This document shows positions 17,929 through 25,571 of a stretch of DNA of 35,741 nt, in pieces (positions within the stretch are counted from its first letter, which is position 1; each line of letters opens with the position of its first letter). A model generated the notes under the pieces. The model did not search any database. It had not been told where the DNA came from and saw only the letters and a program-made list of their open reading frames with translations. This stretch comes from a virus. Location of the stretch: positions 1 through 35,741 of the IMG/VR virus record IMGVR_UViG_3300042923_000268; one strand, given 5' to 3'. The translations under genes were made by a program, and so were the position numbers.

Positions 17929-17999
17929 CTTGCGATACTGGCTGCAAGGCCATTCACTATAGATAAAAATAGAACATACGTTCCCGAGGAGGAATGGTT

Positions 18000-19103
18000 A
18001 TGGCTTCATATCAGAAACGAGGTAAGACCTGGCAATACACTATTAGCCGAATGGTTAACGGAAAACCTGACCCGATCCGTAAAGGCGGATTCGCTACCAA
18101 GGGTGAAGCGAAAGCAGCTGCAGGCGATATCGAACAAGATTTGCGCAAAGGGATCACACCACACCTTAAACCCGAGCCGTTTGACGAATACTTTGAAACG
18201 TGGCTTAAGTTGTACAAGCCGAATGTGGCAGGAAACACAATGGCCCGATATGAGAATACTCTAAAGACGATACAAGAAAATTTCCCCGGTGAAACGATCC
18301 AGAGTTTCACAAAAAGACGCTATCAAGAATTCCTTAATAAGTACGGGTCGACGAGATCGAAAGAAACTACGCGTAAAATCAACACGCACATTAGAGCTTG
18401 CATTAAAGACGCCATCGACGAGGGTATTATCCATTTAGACTTTACGCGCGGAGCCGTTCTCACCGGAACAGTGCCGGCTAAGCGCGGAGAAGATAAACAC
18501 CTCAGCCTATTTGAGAGCAAACGTCTGTTAAAGCATTTCAAGGACCCTGAATATCTATCTCACTACCTCATCCTCTTAGGTCTCACGTCCGGAATGAGGT
18601 ACGCTGAGTTAGTCGGATTGACGAGAAAGGATTTCTTGTTCAAATCAAATGAGATTAATATCGATAAAACATGGGGATATACAAAAAAGATGCACACTGG
18701 ATTTGGTCCAACGAAGAACGATCAATCAATAAGAAAAATTAAAATGGATGGAAAAACCATGAACATCTTCAAAAAACTATTCGAAAGAACGCCAGAGAAT
18801 ATTCACAGTCTTGTTTTCTTTAGCCCTACATCCAAATACAAAGTACTATGTAATACAGCCGTAAATAAAGTTCTTAAATCTACACTGCAGAAGTTGAATA
18901 TTGATCCGATCTCCGCTCACGGCCTTCGCCACACTCACGCCAGTATCCTGCTCTATAAACGCGCCTCGATTTACTACGTATCCGAACGCTTAGGACATAG
19001 TGACATTGAAACAACCAATGGGTATTATGCACACATTATTAAAGAGCTCAGGGAACAGGATGATAAAATTGCAGTTAAGACATTTGAGGAAATGATCGGA
19101 TGA
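18000..19103 (+). CDS. int: Tyrosine recombinase (phage integrase)
   Basis: A 367-residue integrase. The N-terminal 55 residues (YQKRGKTWQYTISRMVNGKP) form the AP2-like arm-binding domain, followed by a SAM-like core-binding domain and the catalytic domain with R200 (SGMRYAEL), H307-x-x-R310 (HGLRHTHAS), H333 (LGHSD) and the Tyr nucleophile at 343 in YYAH. I start at 18000, seven bases after GAGGAGG. An ATG at 17994 is too close. Direct repeats of TTTACAC downstream are probable arm sites. It integrates and, with an excisionase, removes the phage. Confidence 0.94.
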   Translation: MASYQKRGKTWQYTISRMVNGKPDPIRKGGFATKGEAKAAAGDIEQDLRKGITPHLKPEPFDEYFETWLKLYKPNVAGNTMARYENTLKTIQENFPGETIQSFTKRRYQEFLNKYGSTRSKETTRKINTHIRACIKDAIDEGIIHLDFTRGAVLTGTVPAKRGEDKHLSLFESKRLLKHFKDPEYLSHYLILLGLTSGMRYAELVGLTRKDFLFKSNEINIDKTWGYTKKMHTGFGPTKNDQSIRKIKMDGKTMNIFKKLFERTPENIHSLVFFSPTSKYKVLCNTAVNKVLKSTLQKLNIDPISAHGLRHTHASILLYKRASIYYVSERLGHSDIETTNGYYAHIIKELREQDDKIAVKTFEEMIG

Positions 19104-20336: not shown

Positions 20337-20363
20337 AAAAAAAGGGAATCCCGAAGGATCCCC
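20337..20363 (-). terminator. Terminator of the Agr-like operon
   Basis: On the minus strand GGGGATCC-TTCG-GGATTCCC forms an eight-pair hairpin with a stable TTCG loop and is followed by seven T. It begins at the base after the LytTR stop codon, so the five-gene operon has a defined end. Confidence 0.88.
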
Positions 20364-20756
20364 TCATCCAAAACAGTATTCATTAGCCGTTCGCGATAAG
20401 TAGGCCGATACGTAATCTAGATTCAAATGAGATATTCGACATTTCTTTGATTCTTTCGTCACTACATCTTCGAAGTACCCCTCATGCTTAAAAGCATTCA
20501 TACTTCTTAACCTCTCGAGATTAACTGCGTTCGTGCGATCGAGCAACGGGAAATCATACCCGGTAGCCTTTAAGCTTTGTTGCCAGTAGATTAACGTACC
20601 AGGGGCGAAATACTGGTTTACCAGAGTGTGGAACACTACCATCTTACAGCAGTTATCGAATTCGAAACAAAGAATGTCCGGTACGTAAACCTTTGCAAGA
20701 GGTTCCAGTATCTCTTTATTCTTAATGACCGGGCTTGTTGAAAAATAGAGATCCAA
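20364..20756 (-). CDS. Receiver-less LytTR DNA-binding regulator
   Basis: This 130-residue protein reads as a lone LytTR domain, the DNA-binding domain of AgrA. VYVPDILCFEFD (23-34), the central HTLVNQYFAPGTL, and FPLLDRTNAVNLERL (69-83) follow the AgrA order, where the last phrase corresponds to FFRCHNSFVVNRHNI, and RISHLNLDYV fits the final strand. The phosphorylation-receiving domain of AgrA is missing. The start is TTG behind AAGGGGGAAGGAAC. It is the last gene of the operon after agrD. Stand-alone LytTR proteins paired with membrane proteins are known in streptococci (HdrRM, BrsRM). I assign the family from pattern, not alignment. Confidence 0.72.
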   Translation of the reverse strand: MDLYFSTSPVIKNKEILEPLAKVYVPDILCFEFDNCCKMVVFHTLVNQYFAPGTLIYWQQSLKATGYDFPLLDRTNAVNLERLRSMNAFKHEGYFEDVVTKESKKCRISHLNLDYVSAYLSRTANEYCFG

Positions 20757-20768
20757 GTTCCTTCCCCC

Positions 20769-20897
20769 TTACTTAAGTAGTTCCTTAGGGGCTTCTGGTT
20801 GGCCGATAAAGAACAAACTAGCTGGTGTAACAAAGATTACAGCTAAACTGGCTAGAGCGGATGCAAGTACGGAAGTTGCGCGAGTTTTGATTGTCAT
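20769..20897 (-). CDS. agrD: AgrD-like autoinducing peptide precursor with Ser ring residue
   Basis: A 42-residue precursor not longer than a typical AgrD. It has a basic N-terminus (MTIKTR), an amphipathic helix rich in Ala, Val and Leu (8-24), the ring segment SLFFI (27-31) and the tail GQPEAPKELLK (32-42). Aligned with S. aureus AgrD-I, S27 takes the place of ring Cys28, and the nine residues after the ring (GQPEAPKEL) match DEVEVPKEL at E, P, K, E and L. Ser instead of Cys predicts a lactone, as in S. intermedius and GBAP. AAGGAGG, overlapping the agrB stop region, precedes the ATG. Confidence 0.88.
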   Translation of the reverse strand: MTIKTRATSVLASALASLAVIFVTPASLFFIGQPEAPKELLK

Positions 20898-20905
20898 GTT
20901 GATAT

Positions 20906-21421
20906 TCACCTCCTTCCATGAATTAGACTGATGCTCTGGATTAAAAACGCCACTGCCACTACTGATGAACTAATTGCCAAATTAGATAAGACGATTAATA
21001 AAGATAAGTATTTAAGTAACGGGTAGTATTTTTCCGATATCCTCGACTGATTTTTTATATCTGTCGGTGCGAATACCAGGACTAGCGCAGCGGCCAGTAA
21101 AGTAACGATCCATGTGACGTCGCTCGAGAATGATATGTAGGAAATCCCTGTTAGCCCAAGCACGCTAATCAATACGCATAGATCAGTCGACGGGAGATGG
21201 TACCCTCCAGATAGCTGTCTCAGTACCGCAAAGGAAATGATCGCCGTTAAGGCCTCCCATTCTCTCCCGGTAAGCACCGACACAAGCATGGTGATAACCA
21301 CAACTCCTGATACGTTCAACAGCGCCGCAATTGAGAAAGAAAGAACTGCTGTACTTGCGGGATGATCAGGGACGACAGTTTTAATTCTTAAAGCTATTCT
21401 TAGAGCCAAACTTTGTATCAT
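20906..21421 (-). CDS. agrB: AgrB-like peptide-processing membrane protease
   Basis: A 171-residue integral membrane cysteine protease. The catalytic pair is H75 and C82 in RQLSGGYHLPSTDLC, with the same seven-residue spacing as H77 and C84 in S. aureus AgrB. The remainder is four or more hydrophobic segments plus a basic loop near 120-135, as in the family. It should cut the AgrD-like precursor encoded 8 bases downstream and close the ring while the peptide crosses the membrane. Its start overlaps the end of the sensor-like gene by 41 bases, showing coupled translation. Confidence 0.93.
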   Translation of the reverse strand: MIQSLALRIALRIKTVVPDHPASTAVLSFSIAALLNVSGVVVITMLVSVLTGREWEALTAIISFAVLRQLSGGYHLPSTDLCVLISVLGLTGISYISFSSDVTWIVTLLAAALVLVFAPTDIKNQSRISEKYYPLLKYLSLLIVLSNLAISSSVVAVAFLIQSISLIHGRR

Positions 21422-22049
21422 TGCTCTCCAATTCCTTTTTCATGGTGTAGGTGAAGAAAAATAGGACTGCGAAGAATAAGGTTAGAAAGATAATGAACAA
21501 AACTTTGTAATAGAGAAGAACTCCGAAGGAAACCGTCATAATGGCTATTAAGCTCATTATCAATATTCTCTCTGCTCTAAACCTAAGTTTTTCCACGAAG
21601 TCATAAGCGAGACCTAAACCGAATCGATAGAGCACAAATGCAAGGGTGAATAACAATACGCCGGTAATGGTCTGTAATAGATATCCCATATACGGGTCGC
21701 TCTCAGCTACCTCTAGCGACAGACTTCCGAATGAAAGAACGGTCACTAGCAACTGTACGATGATCGAAACTGCGTACCCCACAATGCTGATAATAAAGGA
21801 CCATAAAAGCGGTACTTTTACGAATACTGCAACGAAGAAGACAAGGATCAATAAGTTTGCGATTGGGGATAGCATGGCGAGATCTAATTCATCCCTCAAA
21901 ATGAAGCTGATTAAATTCATAACGAATCCGACAGCTAAAGCCGGCCAGACGTGGTCCACCAGTCTATACCTAAAGATGGAAAGCATTATAGCCATAGCTG
22001 CCAGCACTTCAATCATCGAGAATAACATGAACTTCGAAAACTCCAACAT
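21381..22049 (-). CDS. AgrC-like membrane sensor without kinase domain
   Basis: A 222-residue polytopic membrane protein with about six or seven hydrophobic segments (starting LEFSKFMLFSMIEVLAAMAI and ending near FLTLFFAVLFFFTYTM). The layout matches the sensor half of AgrC: transmembrane helices followed by the first residues of the linker (TMKKELESND). It then stops, so no histidine or ATP-binding kinase part exists in this frame or in the following 40 bases. The ATG at 22049 has GGGGGAG eight bases upstream. It may bind the peptide made by the neighbouring genes, or block host AgrC. The family call rests on topology and neighbours. Confidence 0.65.
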   Translation of the reverse strand: MLEFSKFMLFSMIEVLAAMAIMLSIFRYRLVDHVWPALAVGFVMNLISFILRDELDLAMLSPIANLLILVFFVAVFVKVPLLWSFIISIVGYAVSIIVQLLVTVLSFGSLSLEVAESDPYMGYLLQTITGVLLFTLAFVLYRFGLGLAYDFVEKLRFRAERILIMSLIAIMTVSFGVLLYYKVLFIIFLTLFFAVLFFFTYTMKKELESNDTKFGSKNSFKN

Positions 22050-22054
22050 TTGAT

Positions 22055-22360
22055 TTACTCCCCCGATTCTTTTTGCCGATCGCGCCACTCATCAATGTGT
22101 TGCATGTATTCCTCGATATCACTCCGGAGCCATATCGGAAACTTTCCAGCGTACAGTACAGGATCCGGAAAAAAGCTAGTCCTTCTCTTGTGAGTCATAT
22201 TCTTCGGATCTATCCCCAGCAACTCCGCTACGTCCTGATTGCTAAGTAGTTTGATACTCTTCGCTAACTCATACGCTTTGATCAATTCTTTAATTTTAAG
22301 ACCGTCATCCCCGCCTATTCTATCCGCCAGTAAGCGATATTGTTCTAATTCAATATTCAA
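22055..22360 (-). CDS. Helix-turn-helix regulator (MerR/AlpA-excisionase-like)
   Basis: A 101-residue protein. A helical N-terminus (IELEQYRLLADRIGGDDGL) is followed by a winged helix-turn-helix at about 38-90: LSNQDVAELLGIDPKNMTHK, then FPDPV, WLRSDIEEYM, which is the layout of MerR-like AlpA/excisionase domains. The start is TTG eight bases after AGGAGG. It is the first gene after the palindromic promoter, so it may control its own operon. It overlaps nothing but is six bases from the sensor-like gene. It could equally be an excisionase, since attP is 3 kb away. Confidence 0.72.
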   Translation of the reverse strand: MNIELEQYRLLADRIGGDDGLKIKELIKAYELAKSIKLLSNQDVAELLGIDPKNMTHKRRTSFFPDPVLYAGKFPIWLRSDIEEYMQHIDEWRDRQKESGE

Positions 22361-22381: not shown

Positions 22382-22421
22382 AATATAAGACCTTAACTTA
22401 TATAAGTCAAGGTCTTATATT
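22382..22421 (-). promoter_or_regulatory. Promoter inside a 40-bp palindrome, Agr-like operon
   Basis: Arms at 22382-22394 and 22409-22421 are perfect 13-bp complements. The 14-base centre holds a perfect 12-bp palindrome, ACTTATATAAGT (22396-22407). Only one central base pair breaks symmetry. On the minus strand TTGACT (22405-22410) and TATATT (22382-22387) are exactly 17 bases apart, so the dyad covers the entire core promoter. A dimeric regulator bound here would block transcription. Confidence 0.75.
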
Positions 22422-24108: not shown

Positions 24109-25500
24109 TTAATAATACCTATTATAAATAAGATCCATAGACATTATATTCAGAACAACCATCAATAAGGCAGAAGTGCTATAAACGTAATTCTTATATT
24201 TCTCTGGTACGATATATCGAAACCCAAATAATAAAACTAAGTTTATTGGAACTAGTGAAGTTAGTAAGTACCTTCCCTGTAGCATGAAATTATGGTACTC
24301 CTTGAAATAAGTGATTTCAACTGTGTAGAGAAAGACTAGATTTCCTAGCGCGAATATAAGACTAAATAACGCAATCTTGAAATTCTCTTTCCTTCGTAAT
24401 ATTCCGTAAACAGCTCCCCCTATCCCAACCAACATAATCCATGAAAGAACGCTATATATCGTATCCGAATTAAACCGAGTATCAGACCAGCCGAATTTTG
24501 CCCAATACTCTCGAGTCCACACATTGAAAAATCTTTCTTTACCAGCGTCATTGAATAACGCGTTTTGAAAGTACCAATTCAACCCTTGTGTTGGATCACC
24601 TTGCGGCTGCATTGCAACTCCGCCAGAGATGGAACCATAATGCGAGTAACTAAATATCGCCCATGGTAGATATAAGACGACCATCGGCCCCGCAACAAAT
24701 GCGGCAGATTTTAATGCCTTCACCAATCCGTATTTCTTGATGAAGAATATGAGAGCGAATAACAAGATAAATCCGCAAACATAGAACATTTGTGGTTTAA
24801 TAAGAAGTCCAAAACCCGCAACGAAACCACCAATGATAAGCGTTTTATTAGTGAATGCCTTTGTTATAATGAGCAACCATAGCAAAAGCGCAATTGATAT
24901 AGTATCCATCATAATATCGTTATTCACTGCCGCCCCTACCATAGAGAAGACAGGATGCATTCCGGTTGTGATTGCCAGCGCGCCCGCTAAGAAAATCGAC
25001 TTGGGTTCTATTGATTTGCCAATAAAATACGCCAACGTTACCGCAACTAAACTCAACAAAACAGAGAATATCCTCACCGCATATAGCCGGAACACAATGG
25101 TATCATCGTACCCCAGTTTATAAACGAGAGATGCAGGAAAATAGTATCCTGGGGGATAGCCTGCGGCAAGGCTACTGCCGGTTGATACGCGCATTTCGGG
25201 ACTATTATTTTTAGGATCCGAAAGCAAATGATAGAAATTTTGATGTATAAAATACTTTGATTCCGGTTTAAATACGATATCATTCATCCGTACTGCCATC
25301 GTAAATAAGTTTAATTCATGCGAATACCCAGGCTCGGACGTTTGAACCGGAACTTTATTTTCCTCACCCATATACTGAACATAAGCAAAATGGACATGTT
25401 CATCGGGGTTTTGCAAAGGCGGGATAATATAAACCCAAACAAGTCCTTTAATTAGCATTATGGTTAGTATGATCCATAGAAATAGATACTTTTTTAACAA
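24109..25500 (-). CDS. DUF2142-like GT-C membrane glycosyltransferase
   Basis: A 463-residue integral membrane protein with about 10 to 12 hydrophobic helices. The first outside loop holds the acidic PPLQNPDEHVHFAYVQ motif of GT-C fold enzymes, and later loops contain GYPPGYYFPA and YWAKFGWSDTRFN. The overall plan matches DUF2142, which uses polyprenyl-phosphate sugars. Codon use looks more AT-rich than in the surrounding tail and lysis genes, so it may be a recently gained moron. The TTG at 25500 has GGGGG six bases upstream. It probably modifies the host surface in lysogens, blocking further phages or altering serotype. Confidence 0.78.
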   Translation of the reverse strand: MLKKYLFLWIILTIMLIKGLVWVYIIPPLQNPDEHVHFAYVQYMGEENKVPVQTSEPGYSHELNLFTMAVRMNDIVFKPESKYFIHQNFYHLLSDPKNNSPEMRVSTGSSLAAGYPPGYYFPASLVYKLGYDDTIVFRLYAVRIFSVLLSLVAVTLAYFIGKSIEPKSIFLAGALAITTGMHPVFSMVGAAVNNDIMMDTISIALLLWLLIITKAFTNKTLIIGGFVAGFGLLIKPQMFYVCGFILLFALIFFIKKYGLVKALKSAAFVAGPMVVLYLPWAIFSYSHYGSISGGVAMQPQGDPTQGLNWYFQNALFNDAGKERFFNVWTREYWAKFGWSDTRFNSDTIYSVLSWIMLVGIGGAVYGILRRKENFKIALFSLIFALGNLVFLYTVEITYFKEYHNFMLQGRYLLTSLVPINLVLLFGFRYIVPEKYKNYVYSTSALLMVVLNIMSMDLIYNRYY

Positions 25501-25571
25501 GAGAATCCCCCTTTTCGACACCCCCAAATATTACTCGATTTTCGTAGGATTACACAATCCAGATTGTTACA

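Follow-up and report, generated by a model that had tools for sequence, protein, structure and literature searches.

The window, by which we mean the whole 35,741-nt stretch (positions 1 to 35,741 of IMG/VR virus record IMGVR_UViG_3300042923_000268), carries on its minus strand five genes arranged head to tail in the order HTH, REC, AgrB, AgrD and LytTR, which overlap or are separated by gaps of 5-12 nt. The features of this locus, in the direction of reading, are:

22382..22421, minus strand: candidate promoter TTGACT-17-TATATT inside a 20-nt near-perfect inverted repeat (suggestive only)
22055..22360, minus strand: HTH protein, excisionase/HTH_17-like, 101 aa, first gene of the presumed operon (phrog_4745, E 4.5e-6)
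21381..22049, minus strand: REC, kinase-less membrane protein of 222 aa, presumed signal receptor (conserved upstream neighbour of agrB)
20906..21421, minus strand: agrB, 171 aa, membrane peptidase predicted to cut and cyclise AgrD, with H75 and C82 (PF04647)
20769..20897, minus strand: agrD, predicted signal precursor of 42 aa with ring residue S27 (TIGR04223, Shine-Dalgarno AAGGAGGTGA, aligned homologues)
20805..20819, minus strand: codons of the predicted ring S27-L-F-F-I31 (register of the P-x-E-L tail, Ser/Cys interchange at the column)
20364..20756, minus strand: 130-aa LytTR DNA-binding protein standing alone without a receiver domain, read from a TTG (fold match 4g4k)
20342..20365, minus strand: terminator-like stem-loop where the LytTR gene ends (10 pairs, T-rich tail)

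The original prediction had recognised an AgrD gene here, and the gene is real: the minus-strand frame 20769-20897, translated from the ATG at 20897, gives MTIKTRATSVLASALASLAVIFVTPASLFFIGQPEAPKELLK (42 aa), which exceeds the curated cut-off of the NCBIfam model for AgrD family cyclic lactone autoinducer peptides (TIGR04223; 34.7 bits, E 1.4e-8, cut-off 19), and alignable AgrDs in the same gene order recur in about 95 other loci. The same translation places the serine and isoleucine claimed as S27 and I31 at exactly these positions. The gene starts 8 nt past the end of agrB. The Shine-Dalgarno AAGGAGGTGA touches an upstream GTG at 20909, which would yield a product of 46 aa, but lies at a normal spacing from the ATG at 20897; because of this spacing we rejected the GTG and prefer the 42-aa start. 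Downstream of the predicted ring the precursor continues as GQPEAPKELLK and thus ends in P-E-A-P-K-E-L-L-K, the proline-rich E-L tail found in the AgrD family, with P, E and L invariant across the alignment of homologues. Its partner AgrB scores 65.1 bits against PF04647 (E 6.6e-18, cut-off 23) and retains the catalytic pair H75 and C82; this His and Cys are invariant in the alignment, and the H-x6-C spacing is kept in 103 of 104 AgrB homologues, the exception being phage Harrison (L010) with H-x5-C.

The gene for REC overlaps agrB by 41 nt. The structure model of its product shows about 7 helices (pLDDT 76.7); we found no Pfam domain in the window REC, no PDB match for the model in the fold search, and no detectable homology to the N-terminal sensor half of AgrC (hhalign probability 2%), on which grounds we rejected the idea that REC is an AgrC sensor homologue. 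It is nevertheless the natural candidate for the receptor of the peptide, as the constant partner of AgrB and by its position, size and topology; given that it shows neither AgrC homology nor a PDB match, this assignment leans on position and topology.

The last gene encodes a 130-aa protein that aligns over its whole length with the Pfam LytTR model at 14.2 bits (E 0.051), below the cut-off of 22.6, whereas four of its homologues reach 25-33 bits, above the same cut-off and with no other domain over its cut-off; homologues on three plasmids are annotated by NCBI as LytTR DNA-binding proteins. In a fold search with the AlphaFold2 model (mean pLDDT 84.6) the best PDB match was the LytTR domain of Staphylococcus aureus AgrA (4g4k; E 2.4e-6, probability 1.00, TM 0.81 by target length), and all 13 matches of E < 0.001 were LytTR proteins. 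A sequence-profile search of the PDB returned only weak matches, with an unrelated adhesin ranked over AgrA, and the identification is therefore founded on the fold search and on the homologues above the Pfam cut-off. By model comparison the protein shares the fold of the LytTR family and of the DNA-binding domain of AgrA (PDB 4g4k, 3bs1, 4xqn), but unlike AgrA it is a single domain without a receiver; the canonical AgrA of the Paenibacillaceae locus L152 has both receiver and LytTR domains. As a side observation, L077 (on the reverse strand, behind agrD) and L079 carry LytTR-like genes for 241-244 aa that seemingly encode two LytTR domains in tandem.

At the head of the presumed operon, the same HTH gene also precedes REC in the prophages L087 and L088. 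The inverted repeat at 22382-22421 covers both the -35 and the -10 and is possibly the operator of the HTH protein encoded at 22055-22360; promoter-like matches are not enriched in the cassette region over shuffled sequence. Direct repeats, which LytTR regulatory systems would lead one to expect upstream of the operon promoter, gave no convincing signal: a period of 21 occurs in 4, where 1.0 would be expected (p 0.015, uncorrected for the 37 periods), and there are none at the candidate promoter of the window.

Place of the cassette in the phage

The record runs from replication genes through repressor-like and ImmA-like genes, the integrase (17994-19103) and the cassette to the endolysin and the holin, with an HNH gene at the start of 1-35741 and head-tail genes at its end. 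No terminase, portal or capsid gene was recognised among the open reading frames of the record, which is hence probably an incomplete genome. Prophages of Paenibacillaceae share its replication genes, with PolA up to 92% identical, and several of them also share the repressor or ImmA-like genes; on account of these shared genes the phage very probably has its host in this family. The cassette was seen in none of the eight stretches of related prophages that were read, in most of which the far prophage end lies outside the stretch, and a megablast of window 1-25000 against INPHARED recovered no near-identical phage genome. The cassette lies past the integrase and beside the lysis genes, the usual site of genes for lysogenic conversion, and this position together with the integrase suggests expression from lysogens. 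Between the holin and the tail genes the window also encodes, at 24109-25527, a 472-aa membrane protein (DUF2142, PMT_2) without a match in the phage collection, which possibly modifies cell-surface sugars of the lysogen.

A kinase-less cassette and its relatives

Searches of the whole record, with positive controls, revealed neither a histidine kinase (HATPase_c_5, PF14501; HATPase_c, PF02518) nor a receiver domain (Response_reg), though this record is possibly just a fragment. The original prediction is supported as to the identity of AgrD, its ring serine and the predicted lactone, but did not mention the cassette without a kinase and with a lone LytTR gene, which is the more unusual part of the locus. 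This arrangement, in which the signal would pass from the membrane protein straight to a lone DNA-binding protein, is common in Paenibacillaceae. We collected 95 non-redundant loci built alike, most of them from that family: a LytTR gene follows REC and AgrB in 77 of these loci, and in the remaining 18 none lies within reach. The order REC-AgrB-AgrD-LytTR is also found in the phages Harrison, Abouo, Emery and Davies, on plasmids, and on chromosomes of Paenibacillus and Cohnella. Of 297 genomes in the Paenibacillaceae group, 182 have the REC family as such, with nearly all listed open frames between 193 and 260 aa and with 2-6 copies per genome in eight genomes. None of the relatives inspected has a kinase fused to REC; a 425-aa REC frame in G024 was rejected as a fusion, since it is an ordinary REC whose frame runs on spuriously upstream, and so was a long frame in G116 that reads like the same kind of extension. 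In L054/L091, where agrB and agrD are lacking, REC is followed directly by a LytTR gene.

For the genome scan a narrow AgrB alignment was used, one of the full set being too diverse. AgrB was found in 75 of 100 genomes. Among the best 30 AgrB loci, REC lies directly upstream in 23 and is absent from that place in 7, and the kinase-less cassette is the main form of the AgrB locus in the sampled Paenibacillaceae. Of these 7 loci without REC, the six read in detail (L152-L155, L157, L158) pair AgrB with a kinase, and for L152, L154 and L155 the stretch fetched also includes a response regulator. PF14501 kinases, tried as a source of AgrC, had no AgrB beside those first fetched. In an AgrB tree of 104 rows the 7 canonical AgrBs separate from all others with an SH-aLRT of 99, a value from a quick method on a tree with some long branches.

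The cassette shares with staphylococcal agr and with the canonical Paenibacillaceae loci L152-L156 the His/Cys of AgrB, a LytTR-type output domain, and a short AgrD made of a nucleophile, four residues and a P-rich E-L tail. It differs from both in the following respects: 1) it has no AgrC kinase; 2) the LytTR domain stands alone, without the receiver of AgrA; 3) its AgrD carries Ser rather than Cys; and 4) its AgrB belongs to a separate branch. Hargreaves et al. 2014 described cassettes in the Brevibacillus phages Davies, Emery and Abouo, with putative AgrC homologues lacking the HATPase domain; these are the same unit as the window cassette, unlike the agr locus of phiCDHM1 with its 453-aa kinase, and the accessible part of that paper makes no mention of a LytTR gene in the Brevibacillus cassettes (PMC3901668). 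The AgrDs of these three phages have Lys in place of the Ser of the window. An agr-like cassette in P. polymyxa is mentioned by Voichek et al. 2020 (PMC7425212), and in phage papers the entry reads just 'accessory gene regulator B'. In the open-access literature we found no paper that tests these cassettes or connects them with the single LytTR gene.

Ring residue and closing chemistry

The register proposed earlier, with the ring running from S27 to I31, is backed by the homologues, which align with the precursor through the P-x-E-L tail. Serine thus stands at the ring-closing place of a five-residue ring that ends at I31, and therefore a lactone is predicted; this much of the Ser-for-Cys claim stands, but the serine is no oddity, being the commonest state in the cassette family. 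A script assigned the ring residue in the 95 loci as Ser in 63, Lys-type in 16 and Cys in 10, leaving 6 uncalled, and inspection by eye gave about 65, 19 and 10, respectively, with one locus in which no AgrD was found; nothing other than Ser, Cys or Lys (the last one place later) was seen. The readable AgrDs of canonical agr loci, by comparison, all have Cys (5 of 5). Two observations bear on the role of this column: the window AgrB clusters, with support 98, with those of L066, whose AgrD has Ser, and L073, whose AgrD has Cys; and within a single syntenic locus the Cys of L162 stands against Ser in L163 and L165. Given that Ser and Cys replace each other among close relatives and at a syntenic position, the column appears to hold an exchangeable nucleophile, for which the comparative evidence is strong. 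Maturation and export by AgrB of a Ser-closed pentapeptide lactone from the window AgrD is a strong prediction; the lactone reading is well supported and likely right, but it is not special to this phage and is ordinary for the cassette family. Lactone signals were previously known from S. pseudintermedius and from enterococci, and the AIP of S. pseudintermedius/intermedius and the E. faecalis GBAP are likewise closed by Ser, but both signal via histidine kinases and the ring of GBAP is larger than the one predicted here (PMC3673130). Unlike in those organisms, Ser is the usual state of the whole family to which the window belongs.

The Lys-type AgrDs have neither Ser nor Cys at the ring place; instead a Lys follows one residue later, succeeded by x-x-hydrophobic-[G/H/Y], as in KVFLG (Harrison), KFGLG (Abouo), KVTIG (Emery), KPYIH (L134) and KSFIG (the second copy of L024). 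Such precursors are encoded at L010 4513-4641, L011 4507-4647, L012 4527-4643, L013 and L024 8621-8755, and further ones at L077, L129, L133, L134, L145 and L146; in the AgrB tree they occupy two distinct regions. A scan of viral sequences with the second AgrB of L024 had no match. Counting atoms, a lactam through the Lys side chain across four residues has a ring of 16 (9 + 7), exactly as does a five-residue ring closed by Ser or Cys (12 + 4), and in view of this equal size a Lys lactam is a possible product; a linear peptide would be the plain alternative. The Ser-type and Lys-type Paenibacillus cassettes L024, L077, L017 and L002 have a similar upstream promoter (ATTACC..., ATTGCC-17-TATA) although their presumed receptors share no more than about 20% identity, a hint that one regulator may serve both types.

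How the signal might be read

On balance, and with some reserve, we favour the view that this is a phage-borne agr cassette that works without a two-component system. AgrB would cut the tail off AgrD and join the I31 carboxyl to the S27 side chain, giving a 16-atom lactone with the ring S-L-F-F-I; the N-terminal part of AgrD would be trimmed and the peptide exported. The 222-aa REC would sense the peptide and control the lone AgrA-type LytTR protein directly, without a kinase; as there is no phosphorelay, direct binding between the two is the plainest link. In the simplest form REC would keep the LytTR protein inactive until the signal binds, and the freed protein would activate the cassette along with other phage or host genes. 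Lactone formation, sensing, direct LytTR control and the biological output are all steps that we infer. A precedent for such control lies in the LytTR regulatory systems, in which the activator, a soluble LytTR protein, is inhibited by a protein of the membrane: like the window cassette, HdrRM and BrsRM combine a membrane protein with a soluble LytTR regulator and use no phosphorelay, but their membrane proteins differ from REC, their regulator gene precedes that of the inhibitor where the cassette has the membrane gene first and LytTR last, and the available portion of the source has no mention of an AgrBD pair in known systems of this kind (PMC6193735). In favour of the reading as a whole we count, besides the identities of AgrD, AgrB and LytTR, the lack of kinase and receiver domains and the recurring gene order, the bare REC and LytTR pair of L054/L091, whose content is like that of a LytTR regulatory system, and the separate AgrB branch of the canonical agrBDCA loci with their Cys AgrDs. 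Against it we count the missing AgrC homology and PDB match of REC, the reversed gene order, the unconvincing direct repeats and the GHKL kinases at L162, L163 and L165, as well as the 18 of 95 loci without LytTR, given which REC-AgrB-AgrD may act in other ways too. More tentatively, the cassette may represent a large kinase-free agr-type family, spread over phages, plasmids and chromosomes of Paenibacillaceae and over Brevibacillus phages, with Ser lactones, Cys thiolactones and Lys closures.

Alternatively, the Ser lactone might be read by an AgrC-type kinase encoded elsewhere in the host, with REC as an accessory or immunity protein and LytTR acting independently. Paenibacillaceae are indeed rich in GHKL kinases, with 3 to 22 matches per genome, some have full agrBDCA loci, and divergent GHKL kinases lie beside three cassettes; however, the pairing of REC with agrB holds in 95 loci, with LytTR next in 77 and no kinase in the unit, and the LytTR protein lacks the receiver domain that would accept a phosphate, so that we regard this reading as unlikely. 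The three cassettes in question (L162, L163, L165) adjoin one to three such kinases and a methyltransferase-like gene behind, with synteny conserved in the three genomes, and no response regulator was seen near these kinases. The cassette might also serve interference or competition, its peptide blocking agr-type systems in competing lysogens or hosts while REC and LytTR provided self-protection. The two to six divergent copies per genome and the fast-changing rings on a fixed tail fit specificity classes such as those known for staphylococcal agr; yet interference is usually a by-product of signalling and there is no sign of antagonism here, which makes this proposal quite improbable. We give still less credence to a bacteriocin-like product of AgrBD with REC as its immunity protein and LytTR as the regulator, for which the multi-helix nature of REC and the control of bacteriocin genes by the LytTR regulators HdrR and BrsR could be cited (PMC6193735). 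The AgrD model and the five-residue ring match signal peptides instead, and the unit has no further gene for toxin maturation or transport. Moreover, the AgrB products known to us are signals. That the cassette is a decayed or unused remnant, as the low Pfam score of the window LytTR protein could suggest, is scarcely credible against five intact frames with tight junctions, ribosome sites and preserved catalytic and ring residues.

A Ser-closed peptide by itself would merely be one further lactone signal. In this cassette the two-component parts of agr (kinase and receiver) are missing while both of its ends, the maturation of the peptide and the LytTR output, are kept, and a kinase-free pair of membrane protein and LytTR regulator gains a defined candidate ligand. 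If true, the Lys type would give AgrB a new kind of natural product, a Lys-lactam autoinducer, and the series of Ser, Cys and Lys inside one family offers a natural test of the cyclisation range of AgrB. Given its place between integrase and endolysin, the cassette would be active in lysogens and convey how dense they are, and may provide phages of Paenibacillus with a signal of this density.
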